DNA of 42,413 nt from IMG/VR virus record IMGVR_UViG_3300046009_004738, positions 1 to 42,413 of that record; one strand, given 5' to 3'. The stretch is from a virus. Each line of letters begins with the position of its first letter. Within the stretch, counting starts at the first letter, position 1. A program made the position numbers and the translations under genes. Under the pieces are notes generated by a model, which saw only the letters and a list, made by a program, of their open reading frames with translations, was not told the origin of the DNA and ran no database searches. Shown here one piece after another: positions 25,178 through 29,387 of this stretch.

Positions 25178-26029
25178 TTAGTAGGTTGATCGAATGTTTC
25201 TAAGTATACTTAATTGTTGTTCTGTTAAACTAGGGGTCTTAATATTAATAACAACGATTAAATCACCTCGATGATTGGTATTCATCTGATACAATCCTTG
25301 ACTCTGTAATCCAAATTTTGTTCCTTGCTGGCAGGCCTGCGGTATCTTGATGCTGTATTCCTTACCATCAATACCTTGAACTATTTTATCACAACCTAGC
25401 ATAGCATCTATGCTGTCTATTTCTATATTAGCGACAACGTTGATACCATGTAGTTCAAAACGGTTATCAGGTTGTATAGTAATTATAACATACAAATCAC
25501 CCCTTGTCAAGGTATCAAACATGTTGTCACCCATTTGGCTATACTTGATGGTGGTCCCATCATTAACTCCCCTAGGGATATCCACATCTATGTTATAGCG
25601 ATCACCTTTGGTAGTTTGGACTGATATAGTCTTGCGTTGCTGTTCAAGCGTGCTGGACAGGGTCACCGTCAATTGCACACGTAGATCTTTGTTGCGCCTA
25701 GGCTGTCGTTGTTGGAATGGGTGCCCACCTGGAAAACCTTGGCTAAAGAATTGGGTGAATAGATCTTCTGGTCCACCACCACCAAAATGGAATTCAAAAT
25801 GGTTACCATGATGGCCGCCACCCATGTGCTGGAAAGGATTTGGATTATCGTGTTGTGCCCGACGTTGCGGATCACTTAGGGTTTCATAGGCTGATTGTAT
25901 TTCTTGGAACTTATGTGTGTCACCACCTTTATCGGGGTGATGGGCACTTGCTAGTCGACGATACGCCTTTTTAATTTCTTCTTCGGATGCCCCTTTAGGC
26001 ACACCCAGTGTTTCATATGCATTAGCCAT
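25178..26029 (-). CDS. DnaJ/CbpA-like co-chaperone
   Basis: The 283-residue protein has an N-terminal J domain with the HPD motif at 31-33 ([12 protein letters not shown]), a Gly/Phe/His-rich linker (FQHMGGG...[11 protein letters not shown]), and two C-terminal beta domains ([20 protein letters not shown] and [19 protein letters not shown]). The zinc finger is absent, so it is closer to CbpA/type II. It would stimulate host DnaK ATPase and pass clients. It is followed by the Clp gene and preceded by a late-type promoter. The ATG has no clear Shine-Dalgarno sequence. Confidence 0.9.
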
Positions 26030-26802: not shown

Positions 26803-26838
26803 AAAAGGTAAACTATATGTTATTATAGCTTACCTTTT
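26803..26838 (-). terminator. Intrinsic terminator after the lysis cassette
   Basis: Arms 26803-26817 and 26824-26838 pair over 14 of 15 positions around a 6-nt loop. On the minus strand the hairpin is followed by a run of seven T (26806-26800). It ends transcription coming from the proline-rich frame just before the methyltransferase gene. Confidence 0.8.
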
Positions 26839-26846
26839 ATTTAATG

Positions 26847-26872
26847 TCTACTGTAACAGTAGATTATTTTTT
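26847..26872 (+). terminator. Perfect 7-bp hairpin followed by T-rich run on plus strand
   Basis: TCTACTG and CAGTAGA (26847-26853, 26857-26863) form a perfect stem with a TAA loop, followed on the plus strand by TTATTTTTT. This would stop antisense transcripts. On the minus strand it begins right after the stop codon of the proline-rich frame. Confidence 0.5.
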
Positions 26873-27121
26873 ACGTCTTAGAGGTCGATTTGGATCATCT
26901 ACCGCTGGCGCACTTGGTGCAGGTGTTGCAGCCGGAGCATCACCAAACGTTGGAGGTGCACTACCAAAATCTGTTGCTACTGGTACAGGAACAGGTGTTT
27001 GTGCTATTGGCGCCGGAGGTGGTGTCCAAGTCTGCTGCGGTTGTGGAACTTCTGGTGAAGGAGTAATCCACTGCGGTTGTGCTGGAACACTTACTTCTGG
27101 GGCTGTTCCGTACCCCGTTAT
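26864..27121 (-). CDS. Proline-rich -1-frame extension of the holin-like gene
   Basis: An 85-codon frame runs from the ATA codon at 27121 to TAA at 26864. Read from ATA it gives ITGYGTAPEVSVPAQPQW, many Pro/Ala/Gln/Thr residues, and ends DDPNRPLRRKK. The composition (no stop, real amino-acid pattern, opposite-frame ORF clearly a shadow) supports coding. It has no ATG, GTG or TTG after an in-frame TGA, so it probably cannot start on its own. Entry by -1 slippage at GGGAAAA (27127-27121) would fuse it to the 96-residue holin-like protein, giving 181 residues. Alternatives are an ATA start in an ATAA overlap or a missing A in the run. Confidence 0.6.
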   Translation of the reverse strand: MTGYGTAPEVSVPAQPQWITPSPEVPQPQQTWTPPPAPIAQTPVPVPVATDFGSAPPTFGDAPAATPAPSAPAVDDPNRPLRRKK

Positions 27122-27127
27122 TTTCCC
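27099..27127 (-). promoter_or_regulatory. Candidate -1 ribosomal frameshift signal
   Basis: The heptamer G GGA AAA (27127-27121, X XXY YYZ form) is in the holin reading frame directly before TAA. Four nt later GGGGT (27116-27112) pairs with GCCCC (27103-27099) around an 8-nt loop (four G-C pairs plus T-G). Heptamer, stop codon and short stem are the usual bacterial -1 frameshift layout; lambda G-T uses the related GGGAAAG. Confidence 0.6.
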
Positions 27128-27408
27128 GCGTCACCAGCCTCGATAGCCGCTACTTTTTCTTTACCACGTGTCCAAGCTGCGATACCTAAAATAGCACCCA
27201 TGGAGATGTGATATAAACCACCACCTTGTAGGGTGATAGGTATGTAACTTGAAATTGCCTGACCTGGATTAAAATACTGTAGTACGTTGAATAAGATTGG
27301 GCCTGCGATAAAGTCAAACCAAATCGTAGCCATATAAGTTACGGCCATCAATGGGCGCCACTTAGTGGTCATCCAATCTGTTGTTTTTTGTTCTGCTGCT
27401 GATGTCAT
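27118..27408 (-). CDS. Holin-like membrane protein (3-TM type)
   Basis: The 96-residue product has TTKWRPLMAVTYMATIWFDF (about 14-33), ILFNVLQYF, then TLQGGGLYHISMGAILGIAAW and a charged end TRGKEKVAAIEAGDAGK. The WRP..., 'LQGGGLYH.SMGAI' pattern fits a phage holin family related to the three-membrane-segment gene-transfer-agent holins. Position at the end of an endolysin and spanin-like block supports this. AGGAG precedes the ATG, and a late-type box lies upstream. The frame ends at a slippery heptamer, so a longer frameshifted product is possible. Confidence 0.75.
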   Translation of the reverse strand: MTSAAEQKTTDWMTTKWRPLMAVTYMATIWFDFIAGPILFNVLQYFNPGQAISSYIPITLQGGGLYHISMGAILGIAAWTRGKEKVAAIEAGDAGK

Positions 27409-27455: not shown

Positions 27456-27650
27456 TTAAATCAAGCCAGCCACAGATTTTAAATCGTCTAGCATTTCGTG
27501 TAGCTGTGTCAGTTTCGCTAGATCGCCAGCTGCTTCATTTACAGCGGCAGTGTGTTTAAGATCTTCTAATAATTCTTTGTATTCACTAGCTGATAATGCG
27601 CCAGCGTGATATTGTGCTTGTAAATCTTCTGCTTGTGTTTTGGTGCTCAT
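27456..27650 (-). CDS. Small helical protein in lysis cassette
   Basis: The 64-residue product (MSTKTQAEDLQAQYHAG...) has the pattern of two amphipathic helices: LSASEYKELLEDLKHTAAV and DLAKLTQLHEMLDDLKSV. The 'hydrophobic-S-x-x-E-Y-x-x-L-L-x-D' element resembles the SHOCT-like short C-terminal segments found in many proteins. Its ATG overlaps the stop of the lipoprotein gene by 4 nt. The function is unknown; the context suggests a lysis-related regulator. Confidence 0.7.
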   Translation of the reverse strand: MSTKTQAEDLQAQYHAGALSASEYKELLEDLKHTAAVNEAAGDLAKLTQLHEMLDDLKSVAGLI

Positions 27651-28066
27651 CTTGGTTTTGCTCCTATGACGTTTTGAATAGTTACTGCGTTTTTCTCAAT
27701 AGTGCCAAACTTGAGTGTGCAGTATGCAGGACTCACCGGATCCTTCTCATGATATCTTACATTTAGTCCTTTGACAATTTCAACAAGTTCTGCAGTCATC
27801 TTAACTGTTTCTTCGTTATGTGGAATGCTGGCTGAATAATTCTTTAGTTCTACTGACTTGTACCATAGATTTTCTACCACAGGTACTACTTCGGCTGTAC
27901 CGCATTTAGCCGCACCCAAATTAGCTGTAGTGCGGATGCTGTTGATTTGGCTGTATTCGTTATTGTCAAACTTAGCCATGTTCCATGCACGATACAAGGT
28001 AGTTTGTTTTATAGTTGCGCATCCTGTTAGTAATACTAAGGCCAATGCTAATGCTAATTTTCTCAT
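27647..28066 (-). CDS. Putative lipoprotein in lysis cassette
   Basis: The 139-residue product starts with MRKLALALALVLLTGC, a signal peptide with the lipobox LLTGC, so the mature protein would be lipidated at Cys16. Two further cysteines (C55 region and C117 region) and mixed helices follow. It overlaps the outer-spanin-like gene by 4 nt. A second lipoprotein next to a spanin pair may assist outer-membrane disruption or act on the cell envelope, but no family is recognised. Confidence 0.75.
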   Translation of the reverse strand: MRKLALALALVLLTGCATIKQTTLYRAWNMAKFDNNEYSQINSIRTTANLGAAKCGTAEVVPVVENLWYKSVELKNYSASIPHNEETVKMTAELVEIVKGLNVRYHEKDPVSPAYCTLKFGTIEKNAVTIQNVIGAKPR

Positions 28067-28329
28067 TTGACTTCCTCAAATATTTTACGTTGTGTTTCAT
28101 ACCATTCTAACCAAGCCTTACTCTTAGCATGACACTCTTTGGCTTTGGCATAGTTGTCTGTGGTATTTTCTAATAGATCTGATAGTTCACGTTTAGCGGA
28201 ATCCAATGGCAATAATAAATCACAAGGTTTAGACAATGCTTCTGGTGCTTGCGGGAAACTCATGGTTACTGGCACACTTGTAGCACAACCTGTTAACAAT
28301 AGTAGGCTAATAAGAAATAAATTACGCAT
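28063..28329 (-). CDS. Outer-membrane spanin-like lipoprotein
   Basis: The 88-residue product has the signal MRNLFLISLLLLTGC with a lipobox, a Pro-containing segment (FPQAPEALSKPCDLLLPLD) and a C-terminal helix rich in charged residues (ECHAKSKAWLEWYETQRKIFEEV). The size and layout fit Rz1-type outer spanins. Its ATG overlaps the upstream inner-spanin-like gene by 1 nt. Together they would bridge inner and outer membrane and fuse them at lysis, which points to a Gram-negative host. Confidence 0.75.
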   Translation of the reverse strand: MRNLFLISLLLLTGCATSVPVTMSFPQAPEALSKPCDLLLPLDSAKRELSDLLENTTDNYAKAKECHAKSKAWLEWYETQRKIFEEVK

Positions 28330-28772
28330 TATTTCTTCTCCTTGATGATACTAGAATTATAAGCAGCAACTGCTTCGTCACTAAGTTTACATTCAGCATT
28401 AATTTTTTCACGATTCCTGCGGATATTTTCTTTTGCAACTTCTGCCTTTTCTTTAATCTTAACTATCTTAGTTACGATTTTTTCTTGGACTTTAGTATTG
28501 GCTTGTTTGGCTTTGGCTTCTGCGACTGCTACTTTCTTTTCAACTTCTGCTACGCGAGCACGCCATTCCATTTCTGTTGAATAGCCACCTTTGAAGTATA
28601 CACCTGCGACTAACAGGGCGATGCCTAGTAGTTGTAGAGGTAGTTTCCAACGTCCAACGAATGGAACCCATCCTAGGAAGAATCCCAATGCGGTAGCAAC
28701 GAGACCTGCGATACAGATACCATTGATCACATAGATCAAGAAACTATCTGGAAGTAAATGTAGGATCCACAT
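28329..28772 (-). CDS. Inner-membrane spanin-like protein with long coiled coil
   Basis: The 147-residue product has two hydrophobic N-terminal segments (IYVINGICIAGLVATALGFF and LQLLGIALLVAGVYF), then a charged helical stretch from about residue 63 to 125 (VAEVEKKVAVAEAKAKQANT...KIVKIKEKAEVAKENIRRN) typical of the periplasmic coiled coil of i-spanins. The C-terminal NAECKLSDEAVAAYN has one Cys that could form an intermolecular disulfide. It directly precedes the outer-spanin-like gene. A pinholin-type role is less likely given the coil. Confidence 0.7.
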   Translation of the reverse strand: MWILHLLPDSFLIYVINGICIAGLVATALGFFLGWVPFVGRWKLPLQLLGIALLVAGVYFKGGYSTEMEWRARVAEVEKKVAVAEAKAKQANTKVQEKIVTKIVKIKEKAEVAKENIRRNREKINAECKLSDEAVAAYNSSIIKEKK

Positions 28773-28775
28773 GGT

Positions 28776-29387
28776 TTATGCCAATACGTGTTTAGCGTGT
28801 TCGTAGTGTTTCTTGCGATCATCAAGACCGATAGTACCACCATTAATCCGTTTAGTCATTAGAACGATGTCGTCTTTGTCGCAGATAGCGTTTAAGCCGT
28901 TCTTCTTCCAGAACCAGCAAGCTGACTCGATAGCACCATCAAGTGTTTCTAAGTCTGCTACTGCTTCGTCTAGAGTTAAGCCAACTGCCTTGGCAAATTG
29001 ACTATAGTTGTCACGACCGGTTAATTGTATAGCACCGCGTCCACGGAATCGATATCCATCACCACTTGCTTCATCGCCATTGCTCATGCGGTTAGCATAG
29101 ACCTTGTTAGCAATCTTTTCTGGATTACGTGCATAAGGTTGTGCTGATTCTAATGTTGGGAAATACTTCTTAAAGATTTTGTTCAGACCTTCAGCTGAAT
29201 AGTTTAGATTTTCTTTCAGCACTGTGAATCCTGCTGACTCATGTCCGCACTGTGCTAGGAAACCTGCCGCACGATTGACAGTATTGATCTCATACTTGTC
29301 AAATGATTCTGTTAAGGCGTCTGCTAGATCGTCTGGGTATTTGTATTTGGGAAATATTGCTTTGATATGTTCTGCTGTGATTTGCAT
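28776..29387 (-). CDS. GH19 chitinase-type endolysin
   Basis: The 203-residue product shows the GH19 core: CGHESAGFTVLKENLNYSAEGL with candidate catalytic acids E50 and E59, then FRGRGAIQLTGRDNYSQFAKAVG, and SACWFWKKNGLN. GH19 phage lysins cleave peptidoglycan glycan strands. There is no signal peptide, so export depends on the holin (27118-27408). The C-terminal TKRINGGTIGLDDRKKHYEHA is standard for the family. It is the first gene of the lysis block, before the spanin-like pair. Confidence 0.9.
   Translation of the reverse strand: MQITAEHIKAIFPKYKYPDDLADALTESFDKYEINTVNRAAGFLAQCGHESAGFTVLKENLNYSAEGLNKIFKKYFPTLESAQPYARNPEKIANKVYANRMSNGDEASGDGYRFRGRGAIQLTGRDNYSQFAKAVGLTLDEAVADLETLDGAIESACWFWKKNGLNAICDKDDIVLMTKRINGGTIGLDDRKKHYEHAKHVLA

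Follow-up and report, generated by a model that had tools for sequence, protein, structure and literature searches.

Sequence analysis of an uncultured phage and its relatives identifies what is very probably a programmed -1 ribosomal frameshift in a holin-like gene. Frameshifting at this site had been put forward in an initial annotation of the DNA, and the proposal is now supported by retention of the slippery heptamer among homologues, purifying selection on the shifted-frame tail and covariation in a downstream pseudoknot. The trait that we infer to be conserved is the production of two holin isoforms from one gene. The mechanism of -1 frameshifting is known and the elements found here are canonical; among phages, such shifts are known mostly from tail-assembly genes. 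What appears to be new is the probable use of the mechanism in a lysis gene, together with an arrangement in which the two frames have been swapped in some relatives.

Reading frames at the holin-like locus

Positions are given in the numbering of the whole 42,413-nt stretch of DNA analyzed (the window; record IMGVR_UViG_3300046009_004738), in which the holin region is encoded on the minus strand. The 0-frame ORF of the holin-like gene (27118-27408, minus strand) specifies a short form of 96 aa with two predicted membrane helices and ends in GAC GCG GGA AAA TAA, with the TAA at 27120-27118. As originally reported, this terminus carries the slippery heptamer GGGAAAA in the phase G_GGA_AAA (27121-27127, minus strand), directly followed by the 0-frame TAA. 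From there the -1 frame continues into a proline-rich tail, ITGYG...DDPNRPLRRKK (26864-27121, minus strand), comprising 85 codons past the heptamer and a stop codon at 26866-26864, with proline making up 25% of its 87 codons. The frame indeed offers no usable start: it contains no ATG, GTG, TTG or CTG codon, only ATA and ATT remain as possible start codons, and the tail is therefore accessible only through a frameshift. Joining the 0-frame and the tail yields the anticipated product of 181 aa.

To gauge how unusual this configuration is, we compared it with the 55 in-frame X_XXY_YYZ heptamers located within window ATG ORFs that are 60 aa or longer. The holin site is the only one of these after which the -1 frame runs for at least 30 codons beyond the 0-frame stop; it also has the highest downstream pseudoknot score of the 55, and an equal or higher score is found at 0.075% of random window positions. 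The conjunction of this heptamer with a long -1 frame is hence not attributable to chance. An intrinsic-terminator-like hairpin with a U-run (26803-26838, minus strand; -16.3 kcal/mol, z -7.1) lies 3′ of the tail stop, which places the tail inside the holin transcript, and hairpin and T-run sequences resembling it can be discerned by eye 3′ of the tail stop in split homologues. Between tail stop and terminator, the window carries the palindrome TCTACTGTTACAGTAGA at 26847-26863, and diverged similar repeats occupy this interval in several relatives. An antisense ORF overlying the tail (26844-27146, plus strand) was discarded, as it is unconserved in homologues and the substitution pattern matches the tail frame instead.

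Conservation of the split gene and selection on the tail

A total of 103 distinct gene sequences came from protein-guided scans over 2.9 million viral contigs, supplemented by the window and by a few records of phages and genomes; 15 of them, including that of the window, have the split arrangement. Homologues thus preserve the same split and heptamer, and others encode a homologous tail as an in-frame fusion. All 15 split sequences retain GGGAAA(A/G) in the same phase at the overlap of the two frames, with codons (GCG/TCG) GGA (AAA/AAG) and the exact GGGAAAG in six of them. Every split homologue has a run of either G3A4 or G3A3G, which settles the concern that a fifth A might have been missed in the window. 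The 0-frame stop lies directly 3′ of the heptamer in 13 of the 15, and one or three codons later in the relatives L039 and L035. At these loci GCG, TCG and GGA make up 7.7%, 3.5% and 19.7% of their respective synonymous sets, so their invariable presence indicates that the heptamer has been maintained in spite of codon bias.

The -1 tail is likewise present in the 15 split sequences, spanning 64-95 codons counted from the heptamer, and in each of them it begins with GK-x-x-G and ends in an RP-x-RR basic block. Two tail blocks are conserved, a junction-proximal one resembling GTAPEVxVPxxPxW and the C-terminal RP-x-RR, which are common to the split types and two fused types and are separated by a variable linker rich in proline and acidic residues. 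When the tail is read in the -1 frame, ten closely related pairs of split genes have dN/dS values of 0.15-0.32, with changes at third codon positions dominating; the window sequence and the two relatives nearest to it, compared with one another, give 0.15-0.22. Four distant pairs, for which the alignment is less certain, give 0.47-0.59. These values indicate that the shifted-frame product is conserved and that purifying selection acts on the tail as a protein read in the -1 frame.

Outside the viral contigs, a megablast search against isolated phages returned no match, tblastn yielded distant homologues only, none with the frameshift signal, and the bacterial genome collection provided a single remote match. 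The sequence GGGTTTTAA in L132, which occurs at a different place, shows no pseudoknot by the same scoring and was not counted.

A covarying pseudoknot downstream of the heptamer

A 5-bp stem had been noted 4 nt past the heptamer. The stem is there (GGGGU/GCCCC), but it is not a plain stem: it constitutes stem 1 of a covarying H-type pseudoknot (27084-27116, minus strand), with a loop 1 of 2 nt and a loop 3 of 9 nt. Stem 1 pairs GGGGU (27116-27112) with GCCCC (27103-27099), and stem 2 is formed by the hairpin loop, GGAACA (27109-27104), pairing with UGUUCC (27089-27084) 9 nt downstream, in the overall layout UAAC-GGGGU-AC-GGAACA-GCCCC-AGAAGUAAG-UGUUCC. Across the family this candidate stimulatory structure is found at a short spacer of 4-5 nt past the heptamer.

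In an alignment of 12 distinct sequences, 96.3% of cells are standard pairs, and three pairs of stem 2 show double-sided changes in 16 cells, a figure that counts sequences and not events. The covariation score is 0.369 versus 0.183 in shuffles, none of 500 shuffles reaching either this score or the 16-cell count, and pairing falls to 36-68% in controls with slid partners. Stem 2 variants include GGAACA/UGUUCC, GAAACA/UGUUUC, GGAGA/UCUCC, UCGAAGA/UCUUCGA and UUGAAGA/UCUUCAA; stem 1 is nearly invariant and hence contributes little covariation evidence itself. Because the pseudoknot region is also coding, the observed score was evaluated against synonymous-codon randomizations, and it was matched by fewer than 4% of the recodings in 17 of 19 sequences, the two exceptions being L013 (12/300, 4%) and L035 (29/300, 10%). 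A DNA pattern combining heptamer, stop, spacer and stem 1, run over the 2.9 million viral contigs, matched 15 stretches, every one of them on a contig already found through its holin-like gene. We also inspected the upstream sequence for a Shine-Dalgarno-like stimulator, which we do not claim, given that GAGG or GGTGA-like stretches occur in some members only.

Relatives with the frames swapped

An alignable tail is encoded in frame in four relatives (L013, L037, L038 and L025). Three of these have an in-phase G_GGU_UUU at the equivalent place, followed by a pseudoknot (L013:5291-5338, L038:5291-5338 and L037:5288-5335), and their -1 reading, GGG UUU UAA, meets an immediate stop; the predicted slippage product is 98-99 aa long, compared with 180-187 aa for the in-frame product. 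The fourth, L025, also has a pseudoknot, in this case after A_CCU_UUU, where a shift to -1 would meet UAG at once; the slip site is weaker, and L025 is only a probable member of the group, since ACCUUUU is not a canonical heptamer and its P-site re-pairing is poor. Under either arrangement the expected short form has 92-99 aa and the long form 158-191 aa, and the production of two isoforms thus seems to persist regardless of the frame in which the tail is encoded. No such frameshift signal is present in relatives that have the short form only or an in-frame tail of another kind. Many relatives have just the short form or an in-frame tail without a recoding signal, and two isoforms are therefore not universally needed.

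On a core-gene tree we count at least three changes between split and fused arrangements; the tree is poorly resolved, with 15 of its 26 inner branches open, and the swaps cannot be dated from it. From these comparisons we consider it likely that the two-isoform output has been conserved while the frames traded places, with a pseudoknot kept throughout and a new heptamer, G_GGU_UUU, used where the tail is in frame; the frameshift rate would then set the timing of lysis. The frame-swapped relatives serve as natural controls. Should the two arrangements have the same biological role, either slippage must be efficient or the ratio of the products is immaterial: similar ratios in both arrangements would call for a high rate, and a low rate would make the majority product differ between them. 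Slippage was initially assigned to a minority of ribosomes, but its efficiency could be high. In measurements made in E. coli with stimulators present, G_GGA_AAG ranked in the top three heptamers by efficiency (PMC4066793).

Lysis cassette and identity of the holin-like protein

In the window, as in several relatives, the stretch just upstream of the holin-like gene carries genes for an endolysin (28776-29387, minus strand; phrog_181, 1.5e-81), an Rz-like inner-membrane spanin (28329-28772, minus strand; phrog_312, 1.2e-6) and an Rz1/LysC-like spanin (28063-28329, minus strand; phrog_456, 2e-6, with PF23793 just under its gathering score). The gene order of the cassette is retained in relatives, and the gene families were checked in three of them. 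The holin-like product is thus a small membrane protein sharing a cassette with an endolysin and spanins, as holins do. Its core gives a weak profile match to the phrog_3427 holin (E 1e-4), and the window protein scores 23.7 against PF11351 (GTA_holin_3TM), for which the gathering score is 24.8 and the relative L030, at 25.4, lies above it. In its AlphaFold2 model (pLDDT 75) two helices span residues 4-46 and 64-90, the first being 43 residues long; hydropathy is ambiguous on the number of helices, and the top Foldseek matches of the model are proteins named 'Holin of 3TMs'. These weak profile matches and the gene context together suggest that the protein is a holin.

Several features of the neighborhood may be recorded here. 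The endolysin has 203 aa in the window and in L025, versus 280-281 aa in L036, L013 and L058, where an extra C-terminal region matches other endolysin families, suggesting that a domain was lost or gained in this cassette. Two small genes separate the spanins from the holin-like gene: one for a 139-aa lipoprotein-like protein with a weak match to Cor superinfection exclusion (27647-28066) and one for a 64-aa protein (27456-27650); most of the relatives viewed have both at the corresponding positions. Downstream of the cassette lies a gene at 25178-26029 whose relatives start like a DnaJ J-domain (e.g. in L071), and this gene lies 3′ of the holin region in every relative viewed.

Proposed mechanism and function

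In the mechanism we propose, ribosomes positioned on GCG-GGA-AAA would encounter the H-type pseudoknot 4-5 nt ahead, and a fraction of them would slip back by one base, re-pairing from GGA to GGG and from AAA to AAA. The slipped ribosomes would skip the TAA and add the 85-residue proline-rich tail with its terminal basic cluster, and those that do not slip would stop to give the product of 96 residues; where a relative encodes the tail in frame, slippage at the site of this kind that it keeps would instead truncate the protein. The short and long forms would share two membrane helices and could co-assemble in the inner membrane. The likeliest topology is N-in/C-in, given the basic residues close to either end (KWR ahead of the first membrane segment and RGKEK behind the second), in which case the tail would be cytoplasmic and might alter when or how the holin triggers. 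On balance, and with somewhat more confidence than doubt, we take the tuning of holin triggering and lysis timing by the two isoforms to be the best functional reading. We place it first on the strength of the lysis cassette, the holin-like core, the probable cytoplasmic location of the tail and the example of lambda S, whose charged C-terminus is a cytoplasmic regulatory domain according to passages of PMC7312051 and PMC12817945 that cite Blasi et al. 1999.

Alternative explanations

The existence of relatives with in-frame fusions could be taken to mean that the split is a sequencing error, or that the gene is decaying and the tail is the remnant of a fusion. Sequencing error is excluded because the same split, with an identical junction, recurs in 15 distinct homologues drawn from many contigs; this recurrence, the purifying selection on the tail and the covarying pseudoknot rule out error and decay alike, leaving them a negligible probability. 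We also reject the synthesis of the tail by re-initiation, from a start of its own or through transcriptional slippage, which we regard as very improbable. The tail frame does lie directly 3′ of the TAA, where a coupled restart is conceivable in principle, but no homologue has an ATG, GTG or TTG near the junction and the ATA at codon 3 is missing in about half of them. Moreover, G3A4 is a short run by the standards of polymerase slippage, and a selected pseudoknot at a spacing of 4-5 nt is a hallmark of ribosomal -1 frameshifting.

Two further explanations accept the recoding and differ on what it is for; both rank behind the tuning of triggering by isoforms. The tail might bind a partner, such as a spanin, the endolysin, peptidoglycan or a host protein, and the long form would then act as a tether or antiholin instead of a charge-based timer. 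The two conserved blocks around a variable linker make a linker-plus-motif layout that fits such a role, but the absence of the basic C-terminus from two fused relatives (L037 and L038) does not; we deem this possible and rather doubtful. Less plausible still, and in our judgment unlikely, is that the isoforms serve virion assembly or have a role in a virion membrane, with no part in lysis timing. Tail assembly is the classical use of phage -1 frameshifts (PMC5009743), and a remote homologue in Pseudomonas phage PA5oct (MK797984.1, EST35_0306; L034:4001-4327) is annotated as a virion structural protein and was detected by ESI-MS/MS, which makes the lysis role less than certain. This homologue, however, is only 27% identical and lacks the heptamer, the pseudoknot and the tail, and a virion role sits poorly with the endolysin and spanin genes just upstream in the window and several relatives and with best profile and fold matches that are holins. 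The structural annotation is itself odd for a holin family.

Comparison with known recoding and holin systems

A search of largely open-access literature found no case of a frameshift, pseudoknot or slippery sequence in a holin gene, and the word holin is absent from the accessible portions of the Atkins 2016 review and of the PRFect and GeneTack papers. A close formal parallel to the split arrangement, in heptamer type (G_GGA_AAG) and in the pairing of a 0-frame short form with a -1 extension, is lambda gpG/gpGT, where the shift occurs at a low level and gives about 1 extended product in 30, or about 30:1 (PMC5009743). That system serves tail assembly, its genes encoding a tail chaperone just upstream of the tape measure, whereas the gene described here has a holin-family core, resides in a lysis cassette and is followed by a covarying pseudoknot. 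The tail tube protein of SPP1, gp17.1/gp17.1*, also acquires a C-terminal extension, of 87 residues, through a frameshift right at the stop codon; it differs in being a virion protein and in using a +1 shift at CCCUAA, and no pseudoknot is described in the available parts of the account (PMC6316719). The fused relatives L013, L037 and L038 are akin to E. coli dnaX (tau/gamma) in slipping to an early -1 stop that truncates the product, but dnaX always truncates and the holin-like family includes both extending and truncating arrangements.

Among holins, the core aligns with PF11351 (GTA_holin_3TM) and phrog_3427 and the structural model matches proteins so named, but profile coverage is about half or less and two helices are predicted in place of three. 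In lambda S, as far as the passages citing the original work go, basic residues at the cytoplasmic C-terminus bear on hole formation, much as proposed here; that terminus is always present in lambda S, whereas in the holin-like family the basic terminus belongs to a tail that is optional. Automatic annotation of such uncultured phages truncates the holin-like gene at the expense of this tail. The lambda S105/S107 holin/antiholin pair offers a further likeness, in that one gene yields two isoforms with membrane domains in common and timing could plausibly be affected. Dual starts give the lambda forms a difference of two N-terminal residues, whereas the forms predicted here would be set apart by frameshifting, which adds about 60-95 residues at the C-terminus. 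If real, the lysis-gene frameshift would represent a new way to set the ratio of two holin forms, one fixed by RNA at translation and not by dual starts or a separate antiholin gene.
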